Assembly (NCBI GenBank): GCA_029582155.1
Contig: CM055903.1
Location: 42,981,769 to 43,045,768, forward strand
Length of the DNA stretch: 64,000 nt
Direction: 5' to 3'
Source of the DNA: Panopea generosa
Taxonomy: Eukaryota; Mollusca; Bivalvia; Adapedonta; Hiatellidae
Position 1 is the stretch's first letter. Each line of letters opens with the position of its first letter. The position numbers and the translations under genes are program-made. A model generated the notes under the pieces. That model saw only the letters and a program-made list of their open reading frames with translations, searched no databases and was not told where the DNA came from. This document shows, piece after piece, positions 1,288 through 42,554 of the stretch.

Positions 1288-1432
1288 ATACGACTGACTG
1301 TTAACAACTTTCCTTCTAAGCAAGATGGGGACGAATACAAATGCATATACAAGAATGGAGCCACAGATATTGGTACAACAATTGCATCAAGAATTGACAA
1401 CTATATAACCTGTAGCTCACCAACTGTGGCTT
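1288..1432 (+). CDS. Gene 1 exon a: first part of IPT1
   Basis: The exon follows acceptor TTTTTACAG and ends at donor T|GTAAGT, entering in phase 0 and leaving with one spare base. It encodes 48 residues beginning IRLTVNNFP with a YKC motif and a TCSSP end. This matches the plexin segment after PSI1 (an 'LP...Y.C.F...C..P' pattern). It is the first exon of the gene visible here; no PSI1 or Sema exon was found in 1-1287. Confidence 0.8.
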
Positions 1433-13400: not shown

Positions 13401-16400
13401 CAACAACCAGTTCCTACTAGTGTACCCACAACGAATTATCAAGACAACAAAATGAAACAGTATAAGAACATACATTATTATATACAACATTAAATCTTTG
13501 GGATAAACACTGTTTCGTAGTAAAATAACTAATACTATGTCATTATGCATTACTGTTATACGTGTAGACATTTTAACTAATATGAAATTTGTTATTGACA
13601 TTTCTCTTGACTACGTCGGTTTTGGAATGACATTATTTTCGGCATTTTCCCGACATCGGAACACTGTGACCCGGAAGAAATATATCGGATGAATGCATAA
13701 AGGAAATTTGGTTTATAATAATAATGCATCAATGTCAAATGTTTTAGAAAAAAAAATCGGATATTTATATAAATGATCTCACTATGTTTTCATTTAATCA
13801 TTGATATGGTTTCCACATCCGAATATATTTATCTAAAAGAGAATAAAAAACAGTAGCCTGATACCTTTGACAGTCGTTAAATGGCACAAACTAAATTGCT
13901 CATAAATATATACAACACATGTTGACCTGCTTATGATTCCGCTGGGATTTCCCGCTAATATCTCGATTAAACAGTCAGTTAAAGTATTATATGTTTTTTC
14001 CATGAAAAATATTTGTGAAAAGAGATAAGAGTTATTAAAATTCAGTTGTTGCACATTAATATTTTTAACAAAATGCAGATGTAGTTCGTTTTATGAATTA
14101 TCAAATGTTTTATCATTCATTACAGTTACTGTTTACACGTGTAGTAGGATGGCAAGTGACTGTAGTCGATGTAACGCACTAAACAAGACCAGGTACAGCT
14201 GTAACTGGTGCGGTGGGGCTCCAGCTGTATGTGGCCTTTCCGAGTCAGGATGTACACCTACTACCACGTGCCCAGCTCCAGTTGTTACTAAGGTTTGTGG
14301 GATTTTTTCTACAAATGATAAATACGTCACTGGCCGGACGGAGCATGGCTATATGTAATGCATTATGGGATCTACAATAATTCATAGTAGCATAGGCTAT
14401 GGATCTGAGTATATTCGTCCGTCACCATCTTATATCTCAGTGTATGGTTGTTTTGTGGAATCAGGCGAGACTAAAAAACATTTTGGTATAACGTAAATAT
14501 GCTCATAATAATTATTACGGCGTCTCTGTTGTTTGTAGTTTCTACACAAGTCCACCGGACGTGACGTCATAAAAGATAGTGACACTTATTTTTATCATTT
14601 CATATAGTTCTCGAGATGTGCGTTAACAAATCACGTTTTAACATTTCAGGTACATACCATTTATATTGCAGATAACTCTATAGAAGGGCACTGAGAAAGG
14701 TATACACGTGGACCGGTATTGGCCTTTTATATTGCAGATGCTTACCCGAGATGGGCGGTAATACGGTTATACACGTGTTACTTTTCCGGAACATGACAAT
14801 GCAAATCATGTCCCAAAATAAGCAAAGATAATTATATTTGCATGTTTTTTTATTCCTTTTTCTGAAACTACCGTTTATATTCCAGATTGTACCCCGTGAT
14901 GGTCCCATACAAGGTCATACACGTGTTACTATTTCTGGTACTGACCTTGGATCATCACTGTCAGATATCAGTTCCGTGACACTGGCGGGTGTTGCGTGTG
15001 ATGTTACAGCAGTTGTTGCAGATCGGGATAGTACGGATTTCGATACAATGGTAACAAAAGAGTGAGTGATACTTTCAAAATTTGGAATCAACGATTGAAT
15101 TAGTAATACACTTGATATTTTGTTTTAAACGAGTCAATCAGTCAAAGATGTGTTGAAAGATGGCTATATTTATATCTCTGATGATGCTATAGTCTTTGTA
15201 AATTATGAAAACAATCTAATCTATTCTTGGATACATTATACCATTTTCATGTGTATTTTAGCTGAATAATTTGTACATTATGGTACATTGTAAGTATTTC
15301 GTGCTCAAAATAAATAATTTCGTTTATTTATCATTATATAAATAATCAAGTAAAACTTTTATTTATACCTGTTGTTTAACAAAGATAAAAAATAACAATA
15401 TTCCCATTTATTTTGCCTTTAAGTGTGATGAAATGTCTTTTTAATGATAAATCATGATTATACAAACAGGTAACAGTCTTAATTACATGTCATCTTAATC
15501 AACTTTTCCAAACTTAATGCACACACATATATTTTAGAATACATTGTACATCAGGAGCGCAAAGAACAATGTCTGCTGCTGGTGTCCCAGGGGATGTTAT
15601 AGTCACCAGTGCTGGGAAACAATCTCCTACATCTGACATTATTACATTTACTTATCAGGTAAATTGTTTTGTATGTATAAATGAGGATCTTCTGTGTTTC
15701 ACCCAGTTCAATGTAATTATTGCATTTATTTATCGGGACCCAATTGTTCAAAACACTATTAGCTTAATCTTGCGTTAAATTGAAATTTCAAATCACGCTA
15801 TTTGAGATTAAATACATTTCATGTAATTATGTTCGTGACAATCTTAAAACAATGCCACTGTATTTCTAAAGCCCCTTTTGAAAACGCTGAAAACGTCTTT
15901 AAAATATCAAGATATTGAACAGACTACATGTAACTTTAACCTAACGAAATGTTAAGCTTACATAAGTTTGAACTATTTAAGTTAATATTTTGGGATAGTG
16001 AATGTGTTCAGCTATTTCATACAGATTACTGTGATTTATGCATAATTAATTATATCCATAAATAATATGTAATTGTTGCCGGTTGGTTACTGGGGTCCTT
16101 TTTCGGGTGTTTCCAAGAATCACTGTAATAATATGTATGCATATGAATATTTATTACAAGTTTATGAATGTGTAATTCATAATTACAATGGGCATATACA
16201 CGATAAACACGAAATCTGACACAGACTCAAAGTGTTGTCATTCAAACTCAAAGTGTGACCCTGACCTTAGAAGTACGATGTAGGTCTTACGCGCAACACG
16301 TCGTTGTGTCATGGTGATGCATCGAGCCAAGTGGTTTTGAAATTCATCAATAGCTATAGGTGACAAAGTTACACATCAGACACGAAATCTCAAACAGACT

Positions 16401-19400
16401 AAAAGTGTTGTCAAACAAAGTTAAAGTTTTAACTTGAAATTTGAAATGGGGTCTGGGTGTTACGCGTTGATACTTCGTCATGTTATGGTGATCATTTGTA
16501 GCAAGTATTTATAAAATCTATGTATGACAACGGTACAGGCCGGTCACGAAATACCGGACGGACGGACACTGCGATTACTATATGATCCCCCCCCCCCCAT
16601 TGATTTTGGTGTGTGTGGAGGGAGGGGCATGCTAATCTTAAAACAAATAGGACGTTTTCCAAAACGACAATTTAGAATTTTATAGATAGAATTTTGAAAT
16701 TGAAATTGCCCATCAATTGTTCAAGGTAAGTTTGTGCTGCTTTATAATGGTTCGTTATCACTATGCTGTAACAAAAAAAAGTTCTTCAATAAAATAACAA
16801 CTCAGTCATTAAATATCAGTTATTCATTTTAAAATTCAAACAGATAAAATAAACATTAATGTTATTTAATGTCACATGTGACATATGTGCATCACAGGAT
16901 CAGTGTGAACGGAAAAAACAAAGCCGTTCCTCCGTCTTATTTATGTCTAAACTATATTACATTCATGAAAGAGACATTACAAAACGCTCTGTTTCTGGCG
17001 GCCTAAATAAAATGACAACTATGCACTGAAGTACAGTAAAATTGGTTTTATATGTATGCTATTCTGTACACCATTTTTTCGGTGTTGTAAATAACAATTG
17101 AAGCACTATCGAATGCGCTGAAAATATTTAAAATGCAATATTTATTCTAAAATGAGATTGCTTTTAATATTATATGATGTCAAACATTTGATAGCATGTT
17201 TATTTCCTTTTCTTACAGATAATGACCATCACAGACATACGTCCGAACAAAGGTCCTATTGCAGGAGGTACCAGGGTAACACTCTATGGTGAACACCTCG
17301 GTGTGGGAAACAGAGAACTAATCGTTATATTTGGCTTTACGGCTATAAACGATGTGGAAGTATTACCTAAAAGTGATCTGGATGCTGTTGTAACAGGGTC
17401 AATATTTTGTATTAATTATTTAAAAAACCGGTGATTCAGAATATACAAGCATGTAATTAGTAACTTTACATTAATTTGTCCAGCGTTTCAGTAGTTTAAT
17501 AAATATGTTAAATAGTAAATGTGAAACGTCTGGTTATGTATCGCCGGTAAAGATTTACACAAACGGAAACATATACCTATTTTACACACACATTAGTATA
17601 TGCATAATTATATTGCTGTTTATAAACGGATATATAAAACTTAGGTTACAAATATACATTACGGAATATGTATAGCTCAGCTGAATAACTGTATACAGTC
17701 GAAACTCGTTATCTCGATATTGGAGGGACTGCCAAAAAAACTCGAGATATCCGAATATCGACATAGATTTTGTCTCAAAATCAAAAATTATTTTCATCAA
17801 CAGGGCTGCGTTCAGCACGGATAAATATGTTTACTTTGTTTATAAACGCAAACGGTGAGCTAATGAACGAAAAGTAAACGGGAATCGGTCTATTCGGCGT
17901 TGTCCCTCAACTTCCCATGAAGTCACGTGATTAAACACAAGTAAATAGCTCGCGGAGGTGTTTAGTCTGTCTGCTAACGATAAAAGCAAACATCTCGTTC
18001 AGTTCACTTCTGTACTCTGTAATCAAACGTTTACAAACAAATTAACGCAGCCCATATAAGTGTTGCACCTCAATTGTACTTTCATATTACGGTCCGTGCA
18101 GTAGAATTACAATGTCGTGATAAATGCTATATCCGGGTCCTTCTTCGAATTTCTCGGCAGTGTAAGATATAAGTTTAGGCTGATTGATTGAATCAAATGA
18201 TATTTAAACCAAATTAACATGCAATCACCTAATTCGAAGACACGATGTTCGCAACGTTCTAAAGTCATTAAAACTGACACCTTTGTCATTGACCGGTAAT
18301 TAGTGTTGCGTCATAAACAAACTGTGAAAAATGGCACGCGGCGTGGAAAAAACACACAGTATTATGTCAACAATAAATATATCGAGACAAACAATCAATT
18401 AAAGGAGTTAAATGATCAGTCGGGGACTAAAACTGGGATCATGATATCCGGAGTATCGACAGAAACAATATCGAGTTAAAAGGAGTTTAATTATATTAGT
18501 AATGAAGGGGAAAAGTTAGGACTGGCAAAAGATATCGACATAACCGGAATATCGATTCAGGCGATATCGAGATAACGAGTTTCGACTGTATCTATAAAAT
18601 TACACATGCGTCTCTATTGACATAAAAGTAATATATGTCATCTCTAATATCTTGAATTATATATTGAAATAGCTCATTCCCAAAGTATTTATAAAATTAT
18701 AACCAAGTTAACAAATTGATAAGTGGATACATATTATAACCCAGTTTACACACAAACGGGAACGTATGGCCCAGCTTACACATATATAAAGGATGTGTAT
18801 AATAGCATCCATACGTATATTTATTTTTTTGTGATTATTTGTTTGTTTTTGTTTTACACTGTTGACCATATAATCAATTAACTGTTTTCAGATCGTATTT
18901 CACCGTGCAGGTTGTAGTACCAAGTGGTTTGAAAAGGGATGTATCAAGCGTGAAATTATATTTGCCTAAGAATTATATTCTTCCTGTTGCACAGAAATTT
19001 GTTTATTTCACTCTGCTGCCAAATCCAGTGTTTGACCCGATTCCACAAAAGAAGGGATTTCTTAGGTGAGACCTGAGATGTTGCACATTGTTTTCATTTT
19101 ATTCGCTATATATCATATAGTTATCATGATTATCAATATTATAATGTTATTAATGAAGTGAACGCATATTGGCTTACTTTGATATTTGGCCGAGGACTTT
19201 CGTATTGGCACGAGGCCTTAGGACGATGGCCAAGATTCAATATCAACTCAATATGTTAATTAATGACATTTTTACTAATTAACTATTACCTTCCATTTCA
19301 GTGCCTGCTTGAATGGTACTGGGAAATAAAGGTACCTGCGTATGAATTACACGAGCATAAAACAACAAGAGTAACAAAATATATATTAAAAGACACTGAC

Positions 19401-22393
19401 GTTTACTTGGAGTGATATAAAGTTGCACGATATTTTCAAGATGGCGTAGTGATAAATTATTAATTGACTTTATTGTATTGGCCTTGTTATATACTCGGAC
19501 TCGGCCAATACGAACCGAACTTGCCAAATACAAAACAACCTGAAGCCTACTGTATTTCATTAACTTACATAAATAAATAATTGAAAACGAAACGGTTATT
19601 GGCCATGGGTTAATAAGACACGTTCTTGGACCAACAACTCGGAAAATATGAAATAACTTGAAAATATGATTTTATTAAACAGTGACTCCCATATTGACTG
19701 CGCATTTTAACCAATTAAAACACTTGGATTTTGTATTGCAGAGCATCTTAACCAATCAATACACTCGGTTTTTCTATTGGCCTTACTTGGTCGTATTAGC
19801 TGGGTTTCTGTTTGTGTTGGCTGAGTTTAGCTTAATATTTAAGTGTTCCTTACCATGTGAACGCTGCGATTTCACTCTTATGACACCTAAAACTTTATAG
19901 TTAATTAATAAACAAGGCTATCAATATATCATCAATATGCATTTCACTCTTTTTCTCCAAGTGCAATAAATAGTAAAGACCAGTCTATTATCCAATGCAA
20001 GTATTCAATCAACAACCCTAATATTGTCAAAATTAAAAGAGCTATTCAACATAATGTCAAATACTTTATTATAGTTTTTTATTTCATTTTTACAAATGCT
20101 GTTAAATGCAGATACATATTGCAGAAAGAAGACAGAAATTTCATTAGTAAACAACCCTAATATCATCGAAAGTTTAAGTGCTGTCATCATCAAGTACTAA
20201 AAATATCAACAACAAGAGTCCCAATAGGGCATGTAGCGCTCAGTGACCTTTACATTGGCCCCATTCACCACAAAACCAACTTCAATCGAACTTTTTATAT
20301 CAGAAAACGATAAACACAAAATTATATCAAAAATATATTAAAGGAAAATACAGTTATTGAGCAAAAACTATTTTCTGTATGCTTCTTTAAAAATCCAAGA
20401 GATATGACGCTGTTGTTTCATAACTAATTGATTCATGTGAGTTTTTATGCCTGTATGACATATGACAATATAATATCACAAGCCAATCAAAATAATAACT
20501 GATACAATAAACCAAATCGAGCACTCGTTCAAGCTTTGTTAATAGCATTCTGACCACAATCAAGCGAAAAATAAAAGTGCTGCAGTGTAAACAAGGAAAG
20601 TTTCCGCATATTTAATCAATCAAGGCCCATAACTCTGTCCGTTTTAGCTCAATATATCTCGTTCAAAACTTCGACCGATAATTACTGCCTCTCCCATGAG
20701 TTACATATTTATTAATTTATCTAAACTTTGCATTTATCTTTTTGTTTCATTCAAGTTAATTACATGATAATGTACAATGTTAGTATGTTTTTTTACAGTG
20801 GGGGGACATTTATTACATTAAGAGGAAGAAGACTCGACAATGCTAACATTGCTACCATGAAAACCATATATGCCGGAAGCTCCAGTGTAAGTTCAATAAA
20901 ATATATTATCTCAAATACTCATTTTTCATTATTTTGACAACTATAAAATGTCGGAGAACCACTATTTATAAAACTATATTTTCAATTCTAAAAATATGTA
21001 GTTGTACTGGTGGAGGAAGACCTCAGAGCAAAATTGAAGGCCTTCCGCACTTAACTGAAGATCCTTTTCACATAAAGTTTATGGATGGTGAGAGGCAAAT
21101 GGTCATGTAAGAATGTTTGTCAGTTACATGCGGACGGTGATTCTACTCAGATTCAGTCTAAGATATTCTTCCACCAATACAATAGGATGTCATAAACCAT
21201 GGGCAATGTCGAACTTAACAGTGCTCAAACAGCGACACCCCAATTCACTAACTTTGCAATTCATCCCAGACATTGGTATTCCACAACAGTGAATTTGTTA
21301 TCCTTAACGGCAACGTCATTGTTAAGTCTTACATTGACACGTTTTGCTTGCTGTCGCACTGCCGTTTAACGGAGGTCACTTTGACATTCAACATGATAAT
21401 GCGTCGGCACTTACGGGTCGCCTCATAACCGGTTTTTCTTCAAGTCAGGGCAATTTGGATTCTAAAATGACCATTATTGTCTCTAGACATGTTTTGCATA
21501 TGTCTGAAATGAGGTATACGCATTAACGTTCATTAGTCACCTCCGAGAAACGGTAATGAACTTTCCAATGCGTTGGTTCAGGAGTGGAACAACATTACCG
21601 AGCAATGTATTGAAAACATTGTGCTTTCAATGGAAAGTGTTGCTTGCATTGCTGAAAATGAGCTATTCTCGGTACTAATTGCAAAGTTTTTTATTTAAGA
21701 TGTTGCTGTTTGAATAATTAATTCTCAGAGAATTCTTATTATATTTCAAAAATATTTACACAATGTGTGAATGTGAATGCGCATATGTGAATATTTATGA
21801 TTGCCAAATTTTATTATAAAGCTCGTTTATTTTTACAAAGTCCGACGCTTGCGTTTTCAAAGTCCGTCAGTGTATATAAGATGGAATGTGTTCAACCATG
21901 TGATGCATAAAATACCATTCTAGAACAATTTTAGTTAAGACAGGATTATGTGAGTACAACCGGGGACTTGGAGGTTGTTACACATTGCATTACCTTTTAT
22001 GACCAAACTCAATAACACGTAGTATGCTTTCCTTTTTCTTTTCTCGGTTGCATTTTATTCTTCCAAAGGGTCCTATATGATTTTTAGATATTATTTACAT
22101 CAATGCCAACACCAATTAGTCAATGTATATCATAACGTAACTTGTTATTCTACAATTTTCTATCACGTCCATGTACTGTTTTCTGATCGTTTTTCATTTT
22201 ATACAAAACCTGTTTTATATTACATCTAAAATTCGTGTTCCATAAACACTATATGATATGTTTTAAATTACCAGTACAACATCATATTCATTTACTTATT
22301 AAGCATTACAAGAACTAGGAACCAACTGTTCATATGGTAAAAACATCGTCAATGGTGGTGCCATTTGATTCCTTTTTTACTGTTTTATAAATG

Positions 22394-22476
<83 letters not shown>

Positions 22477-25400
22477 CTAATGTCAATTGTATTTGCAGAA
22501 AGTAAAGTGCACAATAAAATCCGCTACTGAAGTAGTTTGTCCAGTACCCAGGGCTCCAAACAACGTATGTGACAACTGTGGATTAATATCTACAACGGCG
22601 CATGTGGCGTTAGATGGAATACAGATTAGCGTTACTATAATCTACACGTCAGATCCAAATATTAAAATGTTAGGAAACAGCGAAACCGACAATGTGATCG
22701 AATTCGAACCTAGTAAAACCAAGCTCATAATAACAGTCAGTATATCAATATCATTTTATAAACATGTCCAATGTGAAATAAGCACAATTTATTTGCTTTA
22801 GATTATCTTTGTTTATTATGTCATTTTATCAAACATTATATTAATCAAGTTCTCTTCATGTAGACTTAAATCGCAAAGTTACATATTACTATCACTTATT
22901 TTAATGACGGATGTAAAAGGTCAACCCATTTTTTTTCTGATTTCTTGAAACCCTGTAGCACCTTCGTGTTGTCCTGCTTTTTGTGAAAGTTATTGAAATT
23001 GTGCATTTGTGAAAAATTGCAGCCATTACATTATAATTGTTAATTGGGAACAATTGCAGCCATTACATTATGAGTGTGTAGCAAAATGACCAAGATTGGA
23101 CAACTCACAAAGGTTGAAACAATCATACACAAAGTAAAATTTTCAATTTTAACTTTACATGAATGAAATTACGAATATACAATTATACAATATATACAAA
23201 TTAAAGATAATTACTCCACACAAAAAGAACACAGCTGGTTTAAAAAAAAGTCCTATGGTGGTATTTACAATTTTTTTCACTCAGTTCTTTCTCCTACACG
23301 CGATCCAAACTGCTTATATCATTTGAATGTTTATAAAAATGCACTAGATACTATCCGCGTCCAGATATCAAAGATTTAGAATCACTCGTCCCTTTTGGCA
23401 GTGGCTATACAAACTGGGTTATCTCCCCTAGAACTCTATACTGAGTATATGTCTTTACGTCGCCTCGTATCGACTTTCGACCGTATGCCGACGTCAGGAA
23501 CGTCAAGTCGTCCATATGACGAATAAATTGGTTGCTATCCTATAACTATACTATCACCAACTGACTTCCTGTCACGTCTATACGTCGTTAATGTAGCGTC
23601 CACATTCCTCGCTTACGTCTAAAAACGGCTACAATATATATATATATATAAACTCAGATTTACTAGTTACTCAAATATGTAATGACATGGCGTCTATTAC
23701 TTACCATCTATCAAGTTCATGGTATTTTTTTATCAATATATGATAACAGTGCATTCATTTCTAACCATCCAATAGTTTCATGGTAGATTTATCAACATAT
23801 TATAACACTTCATTCAATTTTTACCATCTAACAGTTTCATGGTAGATTTATCAATATATGTTAATATTTCATTCAACTCTTACTACCCTCCGTCAATCTC
23901 AAAATAGCAATTATATCTCTACATAACTTCTCATTTATAATATGAACAATTACAGACCAACTCTGTATCTATGCACTTTGTGAATATCAGAATAAGCATC
24001 AACAAAATTTAATTGCACATATCAATCAACTCTTACATGGCGAATCTCAATACTTCATCGCAAACACAATATCAACAGCTCAAAATACGTTCTCAGATTC
24101 CTCGACCTTTATTCTAACAAAACGCTTCTCAATATCATGGATGTGAATTAAATTATAGACATTACCGTCGAAATGGATATGAACAATTTATACAACTTTA
24201 CTTAGATCTGATTATGTCAAAAATATATATATCAGACATTTAAATACAACATAATATAAAGTTCACATACCCATATGCCGTTATGGACTGGAACAGTAAC
24301 ATGCTCAATCTTTCTCGTCACAACTATACCAAAAACTGGACATTGTTTCCATAACACAGTCAGCTCATAAAGCAAAACAGTCCACACACCTTAGTGAAAA
24401 ACGTGTAAATCATGAAACAACAAACCCTCAAACATCGTACGATGGGAATTTTACGCTATTAGGCCAATGTAAACCTAAATTAGTTTTATGATAAATAAAC
24501 CCGTTTAATCATTCTAACTTTCTTAATAATTAATGGAATTTAATGAAATAAACTTCAAAATGATTTATTCTTTTATCAAAATATTAAAAGTAAAAAATAT
24601 CTTAAAAACGTTGCTCCCATCGATCTATCAATACATTTAAACAATTCCACGCTACCTGACACTACTAAATTAGGCCACATCAACCTAATTTTTTTGTTAC
24701 AGAATGTACATTGTGAACAATTGCAGCCTTTAAATAATAAGTGTGTATTGTGAACAATTGTAGCCATTACATTATAGTTGTGCTATGTGAACAATTGTAA
24801 CCATTACATTATAACTGTGTATTGTGAACAATTGTAGCCATACATATTGTGAACAATTGTAGTTATCACATTATTATTGTGCATTGTGAACAACTGTAGC
24901 CATTACATTATAGTTCTGTATTGTGAACAATTGTAGCCATTACATTATAGTTGTGCTATGTGAACAATTGTAACCATAACATTATAACTGTGTATTGTGA
25001 ACAATTGTAGCCATTACATATTGTAAACAATTGTAGCCATCATATTATAATTGTACATTGTGAACAACTGTAGCCATTACACTATAGTTCTGTATTTTGA
25101 ACAATTGCAGCCATTGATATATAGTTGTGTATTGTGAACAATTGTAGCCATTACATTATAATTGTGCATTGTGAATAATTGTAGATTACATTATAGTTGT
25201 GTATTGTGAAAAATTGCATCCATTACATTATAATTGTGTATTAAGAACAATTGTAGCCATTTCATTATAAATGTGTATTGTGAACAATTACAGCGTTTAC
25301 ATTATAATGTTGTTTTAAGAACAATTGTAGCCATTACATTATAGTTGTGTATTGTGAACAATTGTAGCCATTACATTATAATTGTGTATTGTGAACAATT

Positions 25401-28400: not shown

Positions 28401-31400
28401 CGTGCATCGTGAACAACTGTAGCTATTACTTTATATTTGTGTATTGTGAATACTTTCAGCCATTACATTACAATTGTGTATTGTGAACAATTGAAGCCAT
28501 TTTATTCTAATTGTGGATTGTAAATACTTTTAGCCATTACATTACAATTATGTATTGTGAACAATTGTAGCCATTATATTATAAGTGTTAATTGTGAACA
28601 ATTGCAGCCATTACATTATAATTGTGCATTATGAACAAATACTGCAATTGCAATTGATTTGTGGATTGTGAACAGCTGTAGCTATTATAATTTTGCAATT
28701 ACAGGGAGAAAAGTTAAACCTGGTTGCTACTGTATTTGACTATACTGTCACGGTCGGAATAGAAAACTGTACAACGGTTGAATTGACCGATACGAAACTT
28801 GTTTGTATACCACCGACTGAACAACCACAGTCGGGAATACCAGGGGCAGAATACCCGGAAGTGAATGTGAGTACTTAGAATAAACCACCATTATATTTAC
28901 AATAAAATGTCATAAAACAAATATAGTTCATTAGATTGTTTTTGTCTAAAGTTGTATCATTGAATACAAGCAATGTTCAGTTTGTTCTAATTAATCAATT
29001 AGATAACACAACAATCAAAAAGAGCTACTTAGGCTTCAAATGTATTAAACGAGGGGTGTTCGAAATGTATTTTGTATTTATGATTCGCGCAAAATTCACG
29101 TAAAATTTTACATCGATATTCGTACGCATGTAAACCTCATTTCAATCTTACCCAATAACATATACATGTATCTGCTGAAACACCGGATTCCAGAGTTATA
29201 GTCCGTTCAATATAGGCAGTCGTTGACCATTGTTGTAAAAATGGTTGGGAAACTTTCGTACTAAACTCGGTTGTTCTCATAAATACATTTTTGATGAGAT
29301 CACACGGGTTTATGTGTTAACAAACGTTTCTTATGAGATAGTTCGTAGATAGTAAAAGAAATTTGGTTCAAGTGTAGAGTCTGTCGAAAATGCCTAATGA
29401 ATATGAGTAGAACCACCGTCGTGCCACAAGTAACTGATAAACTTTCTCACATATTTATTACTTAGACTGAGTGGGGCTCGAAACCAGGACCTCAGTGGTG
29501 AGAGATAAATGATCATTAAATGACAGAGCCTTAGATGGACCCTTTATTCACGATTCAAAATGGAGATTAAGCTAAAGATAGACGTAAACCGCTATTTAAT
29601 GGAGCTTGATATGCCTTAGATGAGCATGACATGATTATACGGGACCTTTTGATGCCAATCAAATTAATTAACAATATCAACAATTCAGTAAATTCATCAC
29701 TTTGCCAGCGTTTCAGAGCGTGAGATATGTTTCAATATTCTAACTCATTCAAATAATTTGAGTTACATTTTGTTTCCGTGTTACTCAATCAAATTTCACG
29801 GAACAGTTTCCTAAAAGCTACTTACAGAAGTTAATGGGCATTTTAGGACGTTTTATTTGTTTTTTACTCATCCTCTAAGCATATTATAATATCTTATTGA
29901 ATGCTGCCAAATGCGACAAATGTATTTTATGGAGAAGGTAATGTTGAAATTTCAGTAAGTTAACCGATTACTATAAACAGCGTAAAAGACAGAAACGGAC
30001 ATGTGTTCTGTAAAATATTTTTTTGATAAAATCACACGGGTTTATGAATTGACAAAAGTGTCTTATGTGACAGCTCGTAAATGGAAAATTCTTGTGTTTG
30101 TTTGTTGCAAATGCAGCAGACTCTGTTCGGCCGAAGACAGCAACATGTAAAATCGTATCTAAAATTAGAGAAAGTGTTCGAAATGATGCACGTGATGAGT
30201 GATATAGCACTTGCAGGTGTTTCACTATCTTCAGTTCATTTCGTTCTGAGACAAATCATGAAATTTAGGAAACTTTCTGCTAGGTAGGTGCCCTACTTGC
30301 ACGTTTTGAGAAACTGCTTAAACTGTTCCCTGAATATAACCAAAGGCAATTTGCAAACTTTGTCAATAGTGACGAAACCCTGGGTAAGCTATTTCGAAAC
30401 AGGGCGAAAGGTTGGAAACAAAATATGGACCACCAAACATGGTAGAAGGCCAGTTATTTCCAAACGGTCCTTGAGTGTAAAGAAGATTCTTCATACAACT
30501 TTCTTCCCTGTTGAAGGTTTAGCAATACAGGTACCGGTTAACAAGGATAAGCGTGTGACTGGAATGTACTATCGTGATGTGGAAACTACAAAAACTGCAA
30601 ACAGGATACGAAAAATGTCGCCCAGCCGCTGGATTCCAACATATTCGCCTCTTGCATAAGAATGCGCTAGCGCACACCTTTCTCCTTGTAACGGATTGTT
30701 TGAAGTCTGAGAAGGTTACAGTGCTACCACAGAACCCGTTATTCCTAGACACCTTACCCCATGTGACTTCTTTCTCTTTCCCAAAATGAAAACTTCCTCT
30801 CTGGCCATATACATGTTTGTGGGTCACGGCAGGCCTTTGGTTCTGCCGTAAACCAGTGCCTTGGTAGTTTACCCCAATTAGCCAACCTTGACGCTTTCAG
30901 GATTTTGATTCACAGAGTAAAATTATGTATTTCTATCAGGGGAGAGTACTTTGAGGGTATGAAATGAAAACATTAGTGATTAAGTCAAATATTAATGGTT
31001 AGAGGTCAAATACACAATATATTTTGAACACCCCTCGTATAACATTTAAATTAATATATAATCGACCAATAGGCATAAGAATGATAGATAAAAACACACA
31101 TCAGTATCAAATCTTGAATTTAATTAATTTTCATGTTTGATTTGACCTTCTTGTATTACAAACAAGTAAATACATGAGCGTCTTCATTTTCAATCTATTT
31201 ATCACGTTAACACAAAACAAAATCAACAATTAGTATTGACAGGTCAAGAATTTGTTACTGTAACAATGAAAAATATTCACGAAAGAAAAAGGCGATTATT
31301 ATTCTACTGAAAACATGAACATAACAAAAGGAAGTATAGTCCTTATTTGTTCACCTAATGCAGAAGAAACTATTCTGAATATTTTAGGTGGTTTATTGTC

Positions 31401-34400
31401 ATTTTAAACATATGGCATGTTATATATGGTATATCCAGTTTTATTGGTTAAGGAAGACTTTAACATGTTATTTCCTCGTTACTCAATTCTACTTAACGGA
31501 AAGGTTTCCTAAAAGCTATTTACAAAAAAAGTAATGGATATATACAATCTCAGGACGGTTTATTGTCAAATTGATGTTTTATTATCAAAATGAAATTATC
31601 CATTTTTTGAAATGGGGAATGGAATTTTTAAGGAAAGGATCGAGTAAATCAATATTTCTTTATTTTAATATTTTCTTCTATTATGATTTGATTAAAAAAG
31701 GCCATTAAATAAAATACATGCGTATTGTCAGAAAATTCCATGGTCAAATGAATATTTTATTACCAAAATGATATTATCTACAGAAAATACTGGATAAGTT
31801 TTACGAAAAGAAGCTGTTAAGACTATATTTCTTTATTTTGATATCTTTTTATTTTGGTTTTATTGAAAAGAACATTAAAATAATATTATTTTATAAACAG
31901 AACTTTGATGAGTCAACTAATGTTAAAATTGAAATACCATCTTGTTCAAGGTTACCGTGGGCAACATTCACAATACTATTGGGTTTCTGAGGTACAAGAA
32001 GGTTAAGGATGCGGTAACGAACATGACCATTATCATCGTCGTTGTCGTTAGTATCTTGGTTATTTTAGTAGCACTGGGTAAGTTCTGTTTTTAAATTTCG
32101 ATGGCACAAATATTTTGATATATATATTCTATTTAATAATGCAAAGTCGTTCAACAGTTCTACTAAACCAATAGCCACATTAATTCCACTGAAGACTCGC
32201 TGATTCATACATATTTACATTACCTTATTTCTTAACATCTTTCAATTCTTGCAATAAGTATAATCTTTAACAAGCCTACCAAAGAAATGTGCCGTATTTT
32301 TTTCACACCATTTAGATCACTTCTTAATATAGACCACGAACACGTACATAGCAGGAAGAAGTTTTAAGAAATATCTACCAGCCAAAATATATATGACGTA
32401 TACCAACTAAGTAAATAATATTACTGTGTTATGTCTTACTTATGCATCGTACATGTAATATTTAAAAGGATCCTTTGTACATTACCTAGTATTTTTGAAA
32501 TGTTCATATTTTTGTTATAACGTGCTTTATTTCGTACTTTTTACATGTATGTGTATCTATTGTAATTTCACAGCAAGGGATTATGCACAGTATTACTTTA
32601 ATAACATACAATAAATCATGGTATTCACAAGTTTGCTCTTGATAGTAATAACTGCCTGAACGATTATTTTTAACAAATACAAAATAATAATATTGTCCAT
32701 ATATTTTCCAATCCAAGCATCAAAACATTTCCTTTTGTGAAACATTTAATTTAAAGGTGTGAGTTTTGACGTCATTCCAGTTGATAAAATAATTTTAAAT
32801 CATTATATTTTTGAAACAGGGAGAGACAATAAATTTAATAAAATTAAAAAATGTTTTAAGTAGTCAAAGTATTTCATTTTCAACTCTTTCATATCACCGG
32901 TAACTCGTTACATATTCATGTTTAATACATTATGTACCTTTCTAGGAATTGCGACAGGGTGTTACCTGTACAGAAAGTTTGGGAGAAAGGTAAAGGAACT
33001 GGAAAGTATTTCAGCTGCAAAAGATTTGAAACTATCTTCGATAGAGGGCAGGTTAGACTTCTATATATAAAATGTTTATATTCATGTCATTATGCATAAC
33101 ACATCTACTCAATTATCAACATATGTATTTTAAATCCCTCATGGAAAAGGAATAAGTTTTAGATATGGGTAATCATAAATGCTTGTGCTTCATTTGCTCT
33201 ATAAAATGGCTACTGATCACTATTATATATCCCTTCCAATGCACAGGGTTGAGATTCCTTAGCTTCTGATGACGTGCATTGCAATTACCTCACACATGGA
33301 TGCGCCGTTTTCTTGTGCACATGCGGTATGGACGTCGCAATACCATGGCAAAATATGAAAGTCCCAACTCCTTATGAATTGTTAACGGATCTCAAAACAC
33401 TATGTATTCATTCAATCATTAATTATTTCATCCATTCATCCATCCATTCTGATATACACACGTGATGAACTATTCTAAAACAACCAACGACAACGCAATT
33501 TGTGAAGGACAGTGCCCTGTTCAGTTTGCGGACATTACTACATAGGGTGAAATAACTGGTTTATTATCATGGTACATCTGTATATACTACTTGTTGAAAG
33601 TAAAGGATCTAAATAAATTTGAGAGTGTTCTATTTGACAGAAGCGTAAATAAAGCAACAACACCCAAATAATACAACCAACACATCAGCACAGATAAAAA
33701 AACATGCATAGAATTACATGTAGTATAATGACAATAAACCATTTACAGAAAAGTGACAATAAGGAATGCCGCTTTTACGAACACTCAGCGTCGAAACTGG
33801 CACTGGGGAGCATGAGCTCGTTTATGAGTCATTGCAACTGCACTCTTGTCCCGTGGTAATAAAACAAAAATGGACGTTATAAATAATAACAACAGAATCG
33901 TCAGACTTTCCACTAACGTGTTAATGGAGTAAATTACAATATTTCTATGCTCAGATAAGTATAAAGGAAACCAGTGTTAAATACATGTAAACATAGTCGA
34001 TAATATTGCAGAAGCCGGATCAGCTGGAGAATGTTAGATTATATAACGGAGTCTGTCGTGATCGTCTTGGCTGTTTCCGTGTACTATTTCTGCTTCCTGG
34101 GAATCATGAATCTTATTTAGGGGTTCTCTAAACAAATAAAATACTGCTTAAGTCGGTGTTATGGGGTGAGAGAGATGTCAGTAAAACCAAGTCTGCTATT
34201 GTACTTTTCTTGGTGTGTTCCATGCTTCCCAGAGATCCTTTTATTAGAAACGGCTTTAGAAGAAACCCGCTTTCCGTTTGGTGGCTAACTGTAAAAGCGA
34301 AACCACATTTTATATTAATTGAATGTTGTATTTACAAATTAGTGAAACAATTCGCTCTCACGTGACGAGTAGTACCTGTGCTTGTTTATGAACACATTAT

Positions 34401-34961
34401 TATTCGCACGTGATAAATTATTTGAGAAACAAATTGTTTCTAAACCTATTTATGTTTATATATGTTGTCTCCATAATATATGTATGTAAAACACCTGGAA
34501 AAGTTTAACAAGGAATAAGTAAATAATTCTAAAGATATTAATTGATTGTATTGTTTTGCTATATCTACAGGTTGCAAGAATCGGAGGCACGTAACAAAGA
34601 GTCTGTTACCAAGTCCACAAATGTGGATGATCCGTATGCGTATATAGATGATCCCTACCGCGAGATTGACACCGATAAAACTGCGAATACATATCAAGAT
34701 CTTGATGCTACAACTAGAACCGTTGCCTACATTGAAGCTGTATCAAGGGACTCTGGTTACATACACCCACAATCTACATCTAGAAGCTCAGACCAAGGGC
34801 AAACAGATAACGAACATGGAAATGACGGCTACATACATCCTCAGTCGGAGCAGAAGAATTTTGACAATGAGCATCCACAAGCTACATTTAAAAGTTCGGA
34901 CCAAGGGCAACCAAATGACGAATCTGGAAAAGACGGTTATATACATCCTCAGTCGGAGTAG
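1288..34961 (+). CDS. Plexin-like receptor lacking RasGAP, 5' partial, 17 exons
   Basis: Joined exons: 1288-1432, 3731-3821, 6150-6261, 6841-6936, 7813-7914, 10327-10435, 14126-14292, 14886-15061, 15538-15658, 17219-17397, 18892-19065, 20799-20886, 22499-22735, 28705-28866, 31951-32077, 32946-33051, 34571-34961. They total 2583 bases in one frame, giving 860 residues plus TAG. Order: IPT1 end (1-78), PSI2 (78-116), IPT2 (117-218), PSI3 (220-274), IPT3 (275-373), IPT4 (374-487), IPT5 (488-590), IPT6 (591-670), TM helix (about 679-704), tail (705-860). This is the plexin ectodomain order; the Sema domain and PSI1 must lie left of the window. Plexins are semaphorin receptors whose intracellular RasGAP domain signals to small GTPases. 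That domain is absent and the tail is short and tyrosine-rich, so signalling, if any, should go through tyrosine phosphorylation (inference). MET/RON share the ectodomain type but have a kinase, also absent here. Confidence 0.85.
2351..3450. repeat. 126-bp minisatellite, about 8.5 units
   Basis: The phrase CTGTTGCTTTCCCGATAATC recurs at 2470, 2596, 2722, 2848, 2974, 3100, 3226 and 3352: exactly 126 bases apart, with only a few substitutions. The outermost units are more diverged. It lies in the intron between exons a and b. The near-identity points to recent unequal exchange. Confidence 0.95.
3731..3821 (+). CDS. Gene 1 exon b: end of IPT1
   Basis: Acceptor TCCTTTACAG and donor A|GTAAGT. The split codon with exon a gives serine, and the exon ends two bases into a lysine codon. 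It reads about 30 residues (ATLELWVNDVFL, then FYACGHYN), the beta-strand and cysteine leading into PSI2 as in plexins. Confidence 0.8.
3970..4046. repeat. Long hairpin, 31-bp arms
   Basis: The left arm 3970-4000 and right arm 4016-4046 are reverse complements with one mismatch, around a 15-base centre. A second, alternative small palindrome (GAGTCT/AGACTC) overlaps the centre. It could be a foldback transposon remnant. Confidence 0.9.
4838..5100. repeat. Cluster of GTGATATCAC palindromes
   Basis: The 10-base palindrome GTGATATCAC and close variants recur about every 25-40 bases, alternating with TATTCGAATA-like palindromes. One more copy lies at about 5373-5385. Dispersed relatives of the 126-bp repeat (blocks with a 'ctagtagttactga' phrase) flank it at 4480-4800 and 5490-6060. 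Confidence 0.8.
6150..6261 (+). CDS. Gene 1 exon c: PSI2 domain
   Basis: Acceptor CTGATACAG and donor CAG|GTAATA. The residues run CGEC, then C-QWC, then two further cysteines within about 25 residues: the compact PSI cysteine knot with the usual WC pair. It ends in phase 0. Two decayed partial copies of this exon lie just downstream (6333-6461 and about 6498-6550). Confidence 0.88.
6333..6550 (+). pseudogene. Decayed partial copies of the PSI2 exon
   Basis: 6333-6461 repeats the 3' part of exon c plus its donor and following intron, offset by 142 bases. The copy still has WCLQNTQC-like codons and an AG|GTAATA donor, but its length no longer fits the frame. A weaker third copy (TCCAGGCAATGTAGTTAGAG and a degraded donor) lies at about 6498-6550. 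Confidence 0.8.
6841..6936 (+). CDS. Gene 1 exon d: start of IPT2
   Basis: Acceptor CTTTACAG and donor GTACGT; 32 codons, phase 0 at both ends. It encodes a CP motif soon after PSI2 and then a strand ending NLPV. A donor three bases upstream (CCA|GTTGTA) would keep frame but drop one valine; GTACGT is the better donor. Confidence 0.8.
7813..7914 (+). CDS. Gene 1 exon e: middle of IPT2
   Basis: Acceptor TTTTATACAG and donor ACAG|GTAACA; 34 codons, phase 0 at both ends. It begins DVLDFFLTIPAI, continuing the strand from exon d, and ends TSVTFSIQ. It has no cysteine where plexins usually have a 'FKC' motif, so this IPT has lost one conserved position. Confidence 0.78.
8220..8440 (+). mobile_element. 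tRNA-derived SINE
   Basis: A tRNA-like head with a good RNA polymerase III B box (GGTTCGATCCC at 8301) is followed by a body ending TCGAGCTAAAA. The layout and tail resemble SINEs common in bivalves (recognition from memory, not alignment). It lies in the intron between exons e and f. Confidence 0.6.
9060..9460 (+). repeat. Dispersed unclassified repeat, copy 1
   Basis: It shares ordered blocks (ATTGTCATGTTTGAATTG-like, TGTATTTTAGAAGTGCAGA-like, TATGAATGACAAGC, TTTACTATAGAATA) with 44900-45295 in the same orientation and with 55070-55380 reversed. No coding sequence or clear termini were seen. Confidence 0.7.
9910..10326. repeat. 49-bp minisatellite containing a splice acceptor
   Basis: TTCC of the TTCCAGATCACTA motif falls at 9929, 9978, 10027, 10076, 10125, 10174, 10223, 10272 and 10321, exactly 49 bases apart. 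The last is the real acceptor of exon f. Six upstream units keep TTCCAG and two have TTCCAT. Most decoys would be followed in frame by ATC ACT ACA ATT AAC CTG TAA. Confidence 0.95.
10327..10435 (+). CDS. Gene 1 exon f: end of IPT2
   Basis: Acceptor TTCCAG and donor G|GTATAG; starts in phase 0 and ends with one spare base. It encodes ITINERLKNYPVIIKYGF and then an acidic stretch. Its acceptor and first bases are the last unit of the upstream 49-bp minisatellite. Confidence 0.8.
11025..12648 (-). pseudogene. Decayed protein-coding region of unknown family
   Basis: Reading the minus strand from an ATG at 12648, one frame gives 53 codons to a TAG (12487-12489), continues past a second in-frame TAG, then shifts frame near 12325 into a ~70-codon open run ending at 12117. 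Coding-like runs resume at 11395-11607 and 11025-11366, the latter 113 residues with tryptophan, proline and aromatic clusters near its end. I do not recognise the family. It sits antisense within the intron between exons f and g, so it is probably an inserted, dead element or retrocopy (inference). An alternative is chance open frames in the 11.0-11.6 kb part. Confidence 0.5.
12649..14125. other. Intron remainder, nothing recognised
   Basis: AT-rich intronic sequence before the PSI3 exon. No repeat structure or coding frame was supported. Confidence 0.5.
14126..14292 (+). CDS. Gene 1 exon g: PSI3 domain
   Basis: Acceptor ATTACAG and donor AAG|GTTTGT. The exon encodes VTVYTC, DCSRC, a C-NWC pair and three further cysteines (eight in all), then CPAPVV leading into the next IPT. 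This is the classic plexin third PSI, usually 'lYkC...dCs.C.....CgWC'. Phase 0 at the end. Confidence 0.9.
14650..14800 (+). pseudogene. Two decayed copies of the IPT3 exon 5' edge
   Basis: TATATTGCAGA at about 14662-14672 and again at 14728-14738 is followed by bases resembling the start of exon h, including TATACACGTG. The second copy keeps ACACGTGTTACTTTTCCGG against ACACGTGTTACTATTTCTGG in the exon. The true acceptor is at 14885. Confidence 0.75.
14886..15061 (+). CDS. Gene 1 exon h: first part of IPT3
   Basis: Acceptor TATTCCAG and donor GA|GTGAGT; starts in phase 0 and ends with two spare bases. It opens IVPRDGPIQGHTRVTISG, the 'P..GP..G.T..ti.G..L' strand that marks IPT domains, and contains one ACDV cysteine. 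Two decayed copies of its 5' edge lie upstream (14650-14800). Confidence 0.88.
15538..15658 (+). CDS. Gene 1 exon i: end of IPT3
   Basis: Acceptor ATTTTAG and donor CAG|GTAAAT. Its first base completes a glutamate codon from exon h. It reads IHCTSGAQRT and ends IITFTYQ, the second half of an IPT with its single conserved cysteine. Phase 0 at the end. Confidence 0.85.
16200..16600. repeat. Dispersed repeat with internal near-duplication
   Basis: Two related ~190-base blocks ('cagact(c)aaa(g)tgttgtca...gtcttacgcg...') run in tandem and end in GGACGGACGG and a poly-C tract (16587-16597). It resembles a repeat seen widely in bivalve genomes, from memory only. Confidence 0.55.
17219..17397 (+). 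CDS. Gene 1 exon j: first part of IPT4
   Basis: Acceptor TTCTTACAG, phase 0. It opens IMTITDIRPNKGPIAGGTRV, a textbook IPT start (P..GP..GGT). The donor is GG|GTCAAT, a weak match chosen because only it keeps the frame into exon k. GTT|GTAACA seven bases upstream would break the frame. Confidence 0.82.
17696..18588. mobile_element. Non-autonomous Tc1/mariner-type (pogo-like) transposon
   Basis: Perfect terminal inverted repeats start CAGTCGAAACTCGTTATCTC at 17696 and end with its reverse complement at 18588. Both ends are flanked by TA (17694-17695 and 18589-18590), giving an 893-base element. The CAG..CTG ends and TA target site fit pogo/Tigger-like elements. No transposase frame is present. 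A second inverted pair (GGGCTGCGTT at about 17804, AACGCAGCCC at about 18044) suggests a smaller element nested inside. Confidence 0.85.
18892..19065 (+). CDS. Gene 1 exon k: end of IPT4
   Basis: Acceptor TGTTTTCAG and donor AG|GTGAGA. One base completes a glycine codon, then the exon reads SYFTVQVVVPSG and a hydrophobic strand before a proline-rich linker toward IPT5. There are no cysteines, unusual for this half of a plexin IPT. Confidence 0.8.
19066..20798. other. Intron of gene 1 with weak dispersed repeats
   Basis: No exon was seen. 20213-20700 begins AACAAGAGTCCCAATAGGGC, a start like the one at 52420 and similar to a repeat recalled from bivalve genomes. 19140-19560 repeats 'attggc..cggact' phrases. 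Neither has clear ends. Confidence 0.4.
20799..20886 (+). CDS. Gene 1 exon l: first part of IPT5
   Basis: Acceptor TTTTTTACAG and donor AGT|GTAAGT. The split codon gives serine, then GGTFITLRGRRLDNAN, the conserved 'SGGt.itl.G..L' opening of the fifth plexin IPT. Phase 0 at the end. Confidence 0.87.
21000..21190. repeat. Foldback (MITE-like) element
   Basis: GTTGTACTGGTGGAGGAAGA near 21001 is mirrored by TCTTCCACCAATACAA near 21168. The ~180-base interval is non-coding. It may be the terminal part of the adjacent Tc1-like element. Confidence 0.55.
21220..21665 (+). pseudogene. Tc1-like transposase, C-terminal remnant
   Basis: Broken frames read NGGHFDIQHDNASALTGRL (the Tc1 'FQQDNARPHTA' region holding the second catalytic D), then LVQEWNNITEQCIENIVLSM, the conserved C-terminal helix, then a cysteine-bearing end. 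Frameshifts separate the pieces and the third acidic residue region is lost. It is a dead element in the intron between exons l and m. Confidence 0.75.
22395..22473. repeat. (TA)n microsatellite, 79 bases
   Basis: Uninterrupted TA dinucleotides end 25 bases before the acceptor of exon m, so the tract occupies the branch-point and pyrimidine-tract neighbourhood. Confidence 0.97.
22499..22735 (+). CDS. Gene 1 exon m: rest of IPT5 and start of IPT6
   Basis: Acceptor ATTTGCAG and donor ACA|GTCAGT; 79 codons in phase 0. It carries CTIKSATEVVCPVP, then a C-x2-C pair, a strand ending IIYTSDP, and an acidic linker into the IPT6 opening KLIIT. The acceptor sits 25 bases past a long (TA)n tract. The frame stays open past the donor to 22801, but the donor keeps frame with exon n. 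Confidence 0.85.
23000..23085. repeat. Left fragment of the 37-bp satellite
   Basis: Two to three diverged 37-base units ('gaaaaattgcagccattacattataattgt') precede a ~1.6-kb unrelated stretch, after which the array resumes at about 24690. Confidence 0.8.
23086..24689. other. Probable insertion interrupting the 37-bp satellite
   Basis: Satellite units stop at about 23085 and restart at about 24690. The 1.6 kb between has no such units, no long open frame, and three diverged ~65-base repeats at 23690-23890 ('accatctaac agtttcatgg tagatttatc'). The edges show weak inverted similarity (TGTAGCAAAATG against CATTCTGTAACAAAAAAA read in reverse). No family was identified. Confidence 0.5.
24690..28700. 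repeat. 37-bp satellite array, roughly 108 units
   Basis: Units carry CAATTGTAGCCATTACATTA and TTGTGAAC. In the homogeneous core (about 25330-26030) spacing is exactly 37 bases, with alternating GCATTGTG/GTATTGTG variants suggesting a 74-base higher-order unit. Both flanks are more diverged. Many units have CAATTACAG or CAATTGCAG, matching the acceptor of exon n, which lies at the array's right edge. Confidence 0.95.
28705..28866 (+). CDS. Gene 1 exon n: body of IPT6
   Basis: Acceptor CAATTACAG and donor AAT|GTGAGT; 54 codons, phase 0. It reads GEKLNLVATVFDYTVTVG, then a C..L..C pair and a proline-rich loop, matching the last plexin IPT ('G.nLn...y.V.vG...C....L.C..P'). It directly abuts a ~4-kb 37-bp satellite whose units resemble this acceptor. 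Confidence 0.87.
29048..31039. mobile_element. Inactive mariner transposon
   Basis: Inverted ends share CGAGGGGTGTTC (29050 and, reversed, 31026-31037) and are flanked by TA dinucleotides. The 1992-base element holds a decayed transposase and lies in the intron between exons n and o. Confidence 0.85.
30050..30965 (+). pseudogene. Mariner transposase, frameshifted
   Basis: Pieces in several frames match mariner transposases: a helix-turn-helix-like stretch, a DET motif (30371), VSYFETGRKVGNKIW, HGRRPVISKRSLSVKKIL, a TVLP segment, CDFF (third aspartate, about 30758) and GRV-Y-EG near the end. The second catalytic aspartate of the usual HDN is lysine here (LHKNA at 30651), and there are several frameshifts, so the protein cannot be active. 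Confidence 0.85.
31040..31950. other. Intron remainder before TM exon
   Basis: Two diverged copies of a ~250-base unit (a phrase 'ttattgtcaaa..gatgttttattatcaaaatg' at about 31560 and 31740) are present. No coding content was seen. Confidence 0.45.
31951..32077 (+). CDS. Gene 1 exon o: membrane-proximal strand and TM helix
   Basis: Acceptor TTGTTCAAG (weak pyrimidine tract) and donor G|GTAAGT. It reads VTVGNIHNTIGFLRYKK, the conserved plexin strand before the membrane, then a hydrophobic run (TIIIVVVVSILVILVAL) that begins the transmembrane helix. A stronger-looking acceptor at 31900 would put this strand out of frame. Confidence 0.85.
32946..33051 (+). CDS. Gene 1 exon p: end of TM and juxtamembrane
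   Basis: Acceptor TTTCTAG and donor AG|GTTAGA. It completes the TM helix (GIATGCYLY), then gives a basic stop-transfer stretch RKFGRKVKELE and a short helical juxtamembrane segment. Typical plexins continue here into a coiled juxtamembrane helix and the GAP domain; this one does not. Confidence 0.82.
33052..34570. other. Last intron of gene 1
   Basis: No exon or element was recognised. A 69-codon open frame at 34156 has no splice signals or family motifs and is taken as chance. Confidence 0.45.
34571..34961 (+). CDS. Gene 1 last exon: tyrosine-rich cytoplasmic tail
   Basis: Acceptor TATCTACAG; one base completes an arginine codon, then 129 codons and TAG at 34959-34961. The tail is hydrophilic and acidic. 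It contains YAYIDDPY, then YREI and YQDL separated by eight residues (34656-34703), which fits the ITAM rule YxxL/I-x(6-8)-YxxL/I. A YIEA follows, then three YIHPQS motifs (tyrosines at 34758, 34830, 34938) inside repeats of 72 and 108 bases. YxxP sites are favoured by Crk-type SH2 domains (family knowledge). No kinase or GAP motif is present. The repeat frame continues past the stop in decayed form. Confidence 0.8.
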
Positions 34962-35183
34962 AAGAATTTAGACAATGAGCATCCACAAGCTACATCTAGA
35001 AGCTAAGACCAAGGGCAACCAAATGACGAATCTGGAAAAGACGGTTACATACATCAACAGTCAGAGCAGAAAAATTTCGACTATGAGTAGCCACAAGCTA
35101 GACCACCAACTTACCTGTAACTACAAGATGATTCGAGTGATTCGAGTTATGAAGATACAGAGGCAACCGAGCATAATACGTAA
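34962..35183 (+). pseudogene. Decayed continuation of the gene 1 tail
   Basis: After TAG 34959 the same frame keeps coding character: a further 108-base repeat with another GYIH tyrosine (35046), then an acidic end DDSSDSSYEDTEATEHNT before TAA 35181. It is broken by TAA 35004, TAG 35088 and TAA 35118. Compared with the intact repeat, the first stop corresponds to CAG and the second to TCA. The ancestral tail was therefore about 74 codons longer. It is now 3'UTR unless the stops are allelic or sequencing errors. Confidence 0.7.
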
Positions 35184-42550: not shown

Positions 42551-42554
42551 TAAG

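Follow-up and report, generated by a model that had tools for sequence, protein, structure and literature searches.

The window, a 64,000-nucleotide stretch of Panopea generosa DNA, carries on its plus strand a predicted plexin-type gene and, at 63420..64000, the start of the next family member downstream, whose signal peptide and Sema exon run off the end of the window and which is paired by position with a tail exon at C10:43098966. The gene model, obtained by dynamic programming over homology anchors, has 22 GT-AG exons encoding 1386 residues. Openness and phase were imposed as conditions of the model, and the boundaries of some exons, e.g. exons 3, 5 and 15, are uncertain. Exons 1–4 and most of exon 5 fall upstream of the window start; exon 5 is predicted to begin 62 bases before it, and its 3′ part occupies positions 1..55. 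Exons 6 (1288..1432), 7 (3731..3821), 8 (6150..6261; PSI-like by eye), 9 (6841..6936), 10 (7813..7914) and 11 (10327..10390) follow, and like exon 5 they are placed by the gene model and by homology to a relative on contig C13, which reaches 86% identity over 29 residues in exon 7.

Exon 12 (14126..14292) adds a PSI unit, matched below cut-off by the Pfam profile PSI_Plexin-B and also by the C13 relative. The best TIG stretch, residues 799–901, covers exons 13 (14886..15061) and 14 (15538..15658), which share one IPT/TIG unit. The last ectodomain exons are based on homology to the C13 relative: exon 15 (17219..17430; IPT-like by eye, with its 3′ boundary uncertain), 16 (18892..19065), 17 (20799..20886), 18 (22499..22693) and 19 (28705..28866; 85% identity over 54 residues). 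In the gene model, exon 20 (31951..32077) encodes the transmembrane helix and exon 21 (32946..33051) its end and a juxtamembrane segment. Searches with the predicted protein gave Plexin-A4 as the best PDB match (E 2e-57, residues 69–942), with three TIG and two PSI stretches above the Pfam cut-off and PSI_Plexin-B, Sema and a Commissureless match over the membrane region below it. By homology the ectodomain is that of a plexin, as the initial annotation had it.

The cytoplasmic tail and its relatives in the genome

Exon 22 (34571..34961), the last of the gene, encodes a tyrosine-rich tail. Its acceptor AG lies at 34569–34570 and its TAG stop, in frame from the upstream exons, at 34959–34961. 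Counted from RKFGRKV, the cytoplasmic part is 156 residues long, in agreement with the initial annotation, which had described a tail of about this length ending within the exon, and the motifs it had listed (YAYIDD, YREI-x8-YQDL and YIEA) are all present, together with three YIHP sites. The tail had also been described as free of GAP and kinase motifs, and this was borne out: a Pfam search found neither domain in the predicted protein, and among the downstream plus-strand ORFs of at least 40 residues 129 of 130 had no Pfam match. None of the 40 GAP (PF08337) matches listed falls within C10 42.28–43.60 Mb, and no kinase (PF07714) match is listed in the cluster there, with 147 of 784 candidates scored.

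The genome contains 18 tail exons: contig C10 carries 13 of them, clustered within 1.25 Mb, and the other five lie on C23 and C13. The C10 tails are 86–100% identical to the window tail, and those of the second clade, on C23 and C13, belong to the same family at 52–54% identity. A Sema exon could be paired by position with 17 of the 18 (12 on C10 and all five on C23/C13); the remaining tail has membrane and juxtamembrane exons. A match to the juxtamembrane exon lies beside every one of the 13 C10 tails. The tail was not found in other genes: with 150 of 364 candidates scored, the remaining matches were 21–29% identical (best E 1e-7) and fell mostly within the repeat part of the query. A family of GAP-free, plexin-shaped receptors with a tyrosine tail, represented by 18 tail exons, is thus strongly supported at the level of predicted genes.

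The short tail of the window copy is not the family norm. Its stop comes after 129 residues of the tail, as against 237 in seven siblings, and a 108-base tandem repeat (34767..35100, plus strand, 3.1 copies) that codes for a YxxP unit runs past this stop, a relic of an older, longer tail. The window stop is a derived truncation. It could mark the gene as a recent truncated duplicate on its way out, and the comparison with a near twin, in which dN roughly equals or exceeds dS (0.018 and 0.014), fits such decay. The 22 of 22 open, in-phase exons of the gene model and the lack of any stop in 14 full Sema matches on C10 speak against it. We regard decay as improbable, with odds that overlap those of the other readings; even if true, it would apply to the window copy and not to the family. 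The short form retains the ITAM-like pair and the three YIHP sites.

Early stops occur in 4 of the 13 C10 tails (the window copy and those at 43.331, 43.099 and 42.494 Mb), and at 43.099 and 42.494 a TAG stands in place of the last tyrosine. These truncations would suit a decoy or dimer-spoiling plexin, whose ectodomain binds semaphorin or pairs with GAP plexins, of which there are examples on C10, C22 and C26, and blocks those plexins, the tail being of minor importance. No GAP was detected and the Sema exons are maintained, since 13 of them have accumulated at least 368 base changes with no stop, against 16.3 expected without constraint. The tails themselves tell against this explanation, which we consider quite unlikely. 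In the seven full-length tails 16 of 16 tyrosine codons are invariant, whereas 41 of 221 other codons vary, and the second clade has retained a tail of the same family. Constraint on the tail as a whole is modest (pN/pS 0.63–0.76), and outside the full-length tails the 43.455 copy has lost one tyrosine, and the window copy with its twin has also lost one.

Tyrosine motifs

Full-length tails carry YxxP, a Crk-type SH2 site, more often than any other motif. Each of the seven 237-residue tails has nine; in one of them, residue shuffles gave a mean of 1.13 and a maximum of 5 in 5000. Tandem copying of a single 36-residue unit has inflated this count. The three sites of the window copy lie within the shuffled range (mean 0.43, maximum 4), as does the single site of the C13 tail (mean 0.39), and the four C23/C13 tails scanned have only one or two each. 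Judged by motif, the repeated sites of full-length tails point to Crk-type SH2 adaptors. A Crk-like SH2 candidate is present at C9:23540548-23543635, although a CRKL SH2 query found C13 Csk-like exons as its best matches and not this candidate.

ITAMs recruit tandem-SH2 kinases, namely Syk/ZAP-70 and, with Drosophila Draper, Shark. The YREI-x8-YQDL pair of the window fits the rule YxxL/I-x(6-8)-YxxL/I, a pattern that residue shuffling produced in 0.36% of cases for the window tail and in 0.8% for a full-length sibling, before allowing for the many other motifs that might have been sought. These receptors might accordingly work as ITAM receptors, with a Src-type kinase doubly phosphorylating the pair and a Syk-type tandem-SH2 kinase binding it, in an immunoreceptor-like cascade driven in cis by the plexin ectodomain. 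The pair (YREI/YHEI-x8-YQDL) is retained in 12 of the 13 C10 tails, but because these copies are close, retention among them is weak evidence; in the C10:43.455 tail it is lost through a Tyr to Cys change of the second tyrosine. Among the five C23/C13 tails, paralogues of one genome and not orthologues, none has the pair, and four carry another at the C-terminus, YLEL or YLKL, x9, YEEL. The initial annotation had named orthologues with no conserved pair as grounds for rejecting its reading, and these paralogues supply such grounds in part.

The genome seems to encode a Syk-like tandem-SH2 kinase, with four collinear SH2 pieces at C8:37497521-37509623 (34–42% identical) and kinase-profile exons 3′ of them on the same strand (C8:37544462 and 37552219). 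The ITAM route is therefore possible, although Csk-like SH2 exons on C13 score equally well. The schistosome Syk kinase SmTK4 is reported to lack the SH2 sequence that is conserved for binding ITAMs (PMC2820527), so that reading of ITAMs cannot be taken for granted in an invertebrate Syk. ITAM/Syk signalling is a narrower proposal than phosphotyrosine docking in general, and as the main function of these receptors we think it unlikely.

A proposed exchange of the GAP for phosphotyrosine docking

The reading we favor, with a probability of about 0.57, is that a tandemly amplified plexin family has exchanged its GAP for phosphotyrosine docking. One tyrosine-tail exon would replace the RhoGTPase-binding and RasGAP part, i.e. 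everything after the juxtamembrane exon. Ligand on the Sema propeller would cluster or re-orient the receptor, a Src-type kinase would phosphorylate the tail, and SH2 proteins would then dock. A separate kinase would be needed because no tyrosine kinase of the gene's own was found. In full-length members the docking proteins would mainly be Crk-type adaptors on the repeated YxxP sites, whose bound exchange factors would steer Rap/Rac and the cytoskeleton in place of the plexin's own GAP; the membrane-near YxxI-x8-YxxL pair could additionally recruit a tandem-SH2 kinase. The modest constraint on the tail, the early stops and tyrosine losses outside the full-length copies, and the inflated YxxP count count against this reading. 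That the combined tail makes this an expanded recognition-receptor family, in which a single chain links Sema-propeller recognition to signalling of both the Syk and the Crk type, is doubtful. Of the original proposal of a plexin-shaped phosphotyrosine receptor, the GAP-free tyrosine-tail receptor is now backed by a family of 18 tail exons, and the ITAM component is weakened.

Comparison with known systems

In published descriptions the RasGAP forms the inner part of a plexin receptor. The window family shares with canonical plexins the signal peptide, Sema domain, PSI and IPT units and single membrane helix, and 18 of window gene exons 1–20 have a match in the GAP plexin at C10:64.68-64.78 Mb; the family differs in having a tyrosine tail and no RhoGTPase-binding or RasGAP part. 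The published exceptions we found are of two kinds, both in one paper (PMC6374515). Met-LP receptor tyrosine kinases of Lophotrochozoa and Echinodermata, including a mollusc, join a complete plexin ectodomain to a tyrosine-kinase-type inside, but bring their own kinase. The Amphimedon sponge plexins A1–A4 also combine a plexin ectodomain with the absence of a GAP, but their insides are short, with no conserved domains, and tyrosine motifs are not mentioned in the section on them. An amplified family that has traded its GAP for a tyrosine tail would, if true, mean that the plexin ectodomain can couple to a third output, and would offer a natural system for asking what this ectodomain needs from the inside. 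It also raises the questions of whether a single chain here unites semaphorin recognition with ITAM-type or Crk-type signalling, and why over a dozen of these genes have been kept in P. generosa.

DAP12 bears an ITAM, and Draper/CED-1 is an invertebrate receptor that recruits a tandem-SH2 kinase, Shark, through an ITAM-like tail; its ectodomain differs, and its likeness to the window family is one of description. In vertebrates Plexin-A1 works with TREM-2 and the adaptor DAP12 (PMC10705753), which lends the ITAM proposal some precedent. A plexin ectodomain is coupled to an ITAM there too, but the ITAM sits on a separate adaptor, whereas here a similar pair lies in the same chain. For the YxxP sites the closest likeness, again by description, is to DCBLD1/DCBLD2, receptors that act as transmembrane scaffolds and have several YxxP motifs on the cytoplasmic side, in which, according to PMC6029619, CRKL-SH2 binding is promoted by Src-family kinases and Abl. 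They differ in being vertebrate proteins with a neuropilin-like ectodomain.

Structure of the window gene and its relatives

The genome searched comprises 1.474 Gb in 39 contigs, and the window occupies C10:42981769-43045768. Dynamic programming over homology-anchored exons yielded a gene model for 1386 residues, in which 22 GT-AG exons join in phase with no stop before the TAG at 34959-34961. Because the splice model required an open frame and matching phase, it shows that a path of this kind can be drawn, and not all of its boundaries are certain. The first four exons are located on contig C10 before the window begins, with the Sema exon at C10:42970914, and exon 5 straddles the window start. 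Residues 69-942 of the predicted protein match plexin structures (Plexin-A4, E 2e-57). Above the Pfam cut-off were three stretches of TIG and two of PSI, and below it Sema, PSI_Plexin-B and a Commissureless match across the membrane region; neither a GAP nor a kinase was found by Pfam in this protein. The initial annotation had described exon 34571-34961 as closing a plexin-type gene that lacks both, and the splice model, the Plexin-A4 match and the Pfam results bear this out. In the stretch that separates the tail from the next gene, 129 of the 130 plus-strand ORFs 40 residues or longer gave no Pfam match at E 0.01 (one low-complexity ORF was omitted, and an exon below the 40-residue limit could escape), and in a genome-wide search with the plexin GAP profile PF08337 none of the matches listed fell in the cluster. 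On the minus strand, several ORFs at window positions 39811-43007, between two plexin-type genes, resemble by eye parts of a LINE-type reverse transcriptase and endonuclease, and two adjoining ORFs at 46004-46864 resemble ORF1 of another non-LTR element.

With the tail as query, 18 tail exons came up, which rules out a one-off feature: 13 with 86-100% identity span 42.28-43.54 Mb of C10, and the five at 52-54% identity comprise four from C23 and a single exon from C13. Other matches at E up to 5 (150 of the 364 candidates were scored) were 21-29% identical, with a best E of 1e-7, and mostly involved the repeat part of the query. The C10 cluster contains fourteen full Sema matches, 12 of which pair with a tail by position and strand; those at 43.194 and 43.201 Mb are without a tail, and no Sema was found for the tail at 42.494 Mb. 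All five C23 and C13 tails pair with a Sema match, and a juxtamembrane match accompanies every C10 tail (13/13) as well as the gene on C13 and three of the four on C23. Some copies are near-identical, such as those at 43.016 and 43.331 Mb, and recent duplication or twice-assembled haplotypes may have inflated the count.

Seven C10 tails are 237 residues long. The others have 129 (window copy), 144 (its twin), 228 (two tails), 201 and 414 residues, the longest (C10:42905778-42906947) being duplicated within a single open exon and carrying two ITAM-like pairs. Because its siblings are longer and its 108-base repeat runs beyond the stop, we regard the window copy as a derived short form.

Tyrosine sites in the tails

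Conservation of the ITAM-like tyrosine pair, to which the initial annotation had drawn attention, divides along the two groups of tails. The spacing YxxI-x8-YxxL/I is present in 12 of 13 C10 tails, the thirteenth being broken by a Tyr to Cys change, and is absent from all five paralogous tails on C23 and C13. Of these five (that at 1.543 Mb on C23 was read by eye), four end instead in YLEL or YLKL-x9-YEEL; the fifth ends early at TGA. Taken as a whole, the initial interpretation as a plexin-shaped phosphotyrosine receptor is partly supported: the observation stands, and is wider than was claimed, extending to a family rather than a single gene.

Each 237-residue tail has nine YxxP sites, against three for the window copy and one or two for the four C23 and C13 tails scanned. 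Nine in one 237-residue tail exceeds all 5000 shuffles (maximum 5), with the copies deriving from one repeated unit; the window copy and the C13 tail have counts inside the shuffled range. Across the seven full-length tails, 16 of 16 tyrosine codons are invariant while 41 of 221 other codons vary, an outcome with a chance of ~0.04 by our arithmetic if sites are alike, the copies not being independent. The internally duplicated 42.906 tail was excluded from this codon alignment, and the 43.455 tail from the tyrosine list. As a sequence pattern, this invariance weakly supports constraint on the tyrosines. Beyond this set of seven, tyrosines are lost from the 43.455 tail, the window copy and its twin; in the 43.099 and 42.494 tails the last site is TAG. 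Tail pN/pS was 0.63-0.76 in the sets compared. Clearly better retention of tyrosines than of other residues between the two clades was rejected, since 6 of 9 aligned tyrosines retained, as judged by eye, against 52-57% overall identity is no real difference.

Coding constraint and descent

An apparent contrast between hypervariable Sema exons and fixed tails was also ruled out, the 61-66% identity behind it having arisen from use of the most divergent member as query. Thirteen of the 14 C10 Sema exons (that at 43.592 Mb was left out, as its start motif differs) have a median identity of 82% (range 72-98%) and a median dN/dS of 0.62 over 78 pairs. Of 18 sliding windows over eight of the C10 Sema exons, 5 gave pN/pS > 1, with a peak of 1.83 at the exon end, and both pN and pS are highest over residues 121-190, a pattern that may or may not reflect diversifying selection. 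The thirteen exons contain at least 368 base changes and no stops, where ~16 stops would be expected without constraint, which supports selection for open frames. Against working genes, pN is about equal to or greater than pS in three near-twin pairs, and premature stops cut short 4 of the 13 tails. Some 1.5-1.6 kb upstream of the Sema exon in ten C10 family genes, the middle of that exon (~residues 110-215 in the three examined) recurs as an incomplete, diverged copy, and for the window gene an eleventh partial match lies 12.6 kb ahead of its Sema exon. Stops or a frame change occur in some of these copies, and they may be decayed duplicates or gene-conversion donors.

A GAP plexin at 64.68-64.78 Mb (C10:64681001-64781000) is the only GAP-bearing locus reached by the Sema query. 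Its exons 1 and 6 differ from those of the window gene by dS of 0.16 and 0.14, and its other exons by at least 0.45 where computable, a contrast suggestive of gene conversion or recombination between loci about 21 Mb apart. By dN, the GAP plexin is the closer relative for window-gene exons 1, 6, 8-14 and 16, and the tail-bearing gene on C13 for exons 2-5, 7, 15, 18 and 20; of these two loci, only the C13 gene has a credible match to exons 17 and 19, and exon-by-exon comparison found no match to exons 21-22 in the GAP plexin. Inspected by eye, the GAP plexin shows a juxtamembrane exon of plexin type and GAP pieces that can be recognised, and the swap point therefore seems to lie after the juxtamembrane exon. 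The mixed affinities fit exchange between loci or a chimeric origin, in either direction, leaving two histories as alternatives: the tail was gained once and Sema exons were then exchanged, or a chimera was formed.

Candidate partners and known systems

With no enzyme in this anatomy, signalling would run through partners, and the tyrosine tail would serve as a general docking site for SH2 proteins with a Crk-type bias. A candidate Crk-like SH2 lies in two pieces at C9:23540548-23543635 (39% and 59% identical); the best-scoring matches to the CRKL query are instead exons on C13, presumably Csk-like. Three such SH2 exons lie at C13:66925771-66928786, ~48 kb upstream of the C13 tail-plexin. A Syk-type partner for an ITAM receptor may be encoded by four collinear pieces resembling the SYK tandem SH2 at C8:37497521-37509623 (34-42% identical), together with kinase-profile exons at C8:37544462 and C8:37552219. 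Both the Crk-like and the Syk-like identifications are tentative, resting on human query sequences. Two further SH2 exons, at C17:16313684 and C17:16323279, look like the tandem SH2 of an SHP-2/Corkscrew phosphatase.

Of the two routes, we prefer general docking at tyrosines, biased towards Crk-type partners, to the pure ITAM receptor. Replacement of the GAP by a phosphotyrosine-docking tail is our best explanation, at a probability of 0.57. The value was lowered from 0.6 on two grounds: neither the window copy nor the C13 tail has a YxxP count outside its shuffled range, and the CRKL query matched Csk-like exons best. For the same reasons, an expanded family of recognition receptors combining ITAM-like and YxxP sites, doubtful before, is now judged unlikely.

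In the open-licence literature on mollusc plexins with an ITAM or without a GAP, no description of the present arrangement was found among titles and abstracts at the top of the search lists, which is not proof of novelty. YxxP is the described consensus of the CRK and CRKL SH2 domains, a specificity that is pre-metazoan (PMC5043372), and DCBLD1 and DCBLD2 offer a precedent as receptors with several YxxP sites, to which Src-family kinases and Abl promote binding of the CRKL SH2 domain (PMC6029619). Plexin-A1 is reported to work with TREM-2 and DAP12 (PMC10705753). In Met-LP receptors of Lophotrochozoa and Echinodermata a plexin ectodomain is joined to a kinase, and four plexins of the sponge Amphimedon are described as having short insides without conserved domains (PMC6374515). 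Beside these, the Panopea generosa family presents plexin receptors in which, to judge from their predicted proteins, a tail apparently suited to phosphotyrosine docking stands in place of the GAP.
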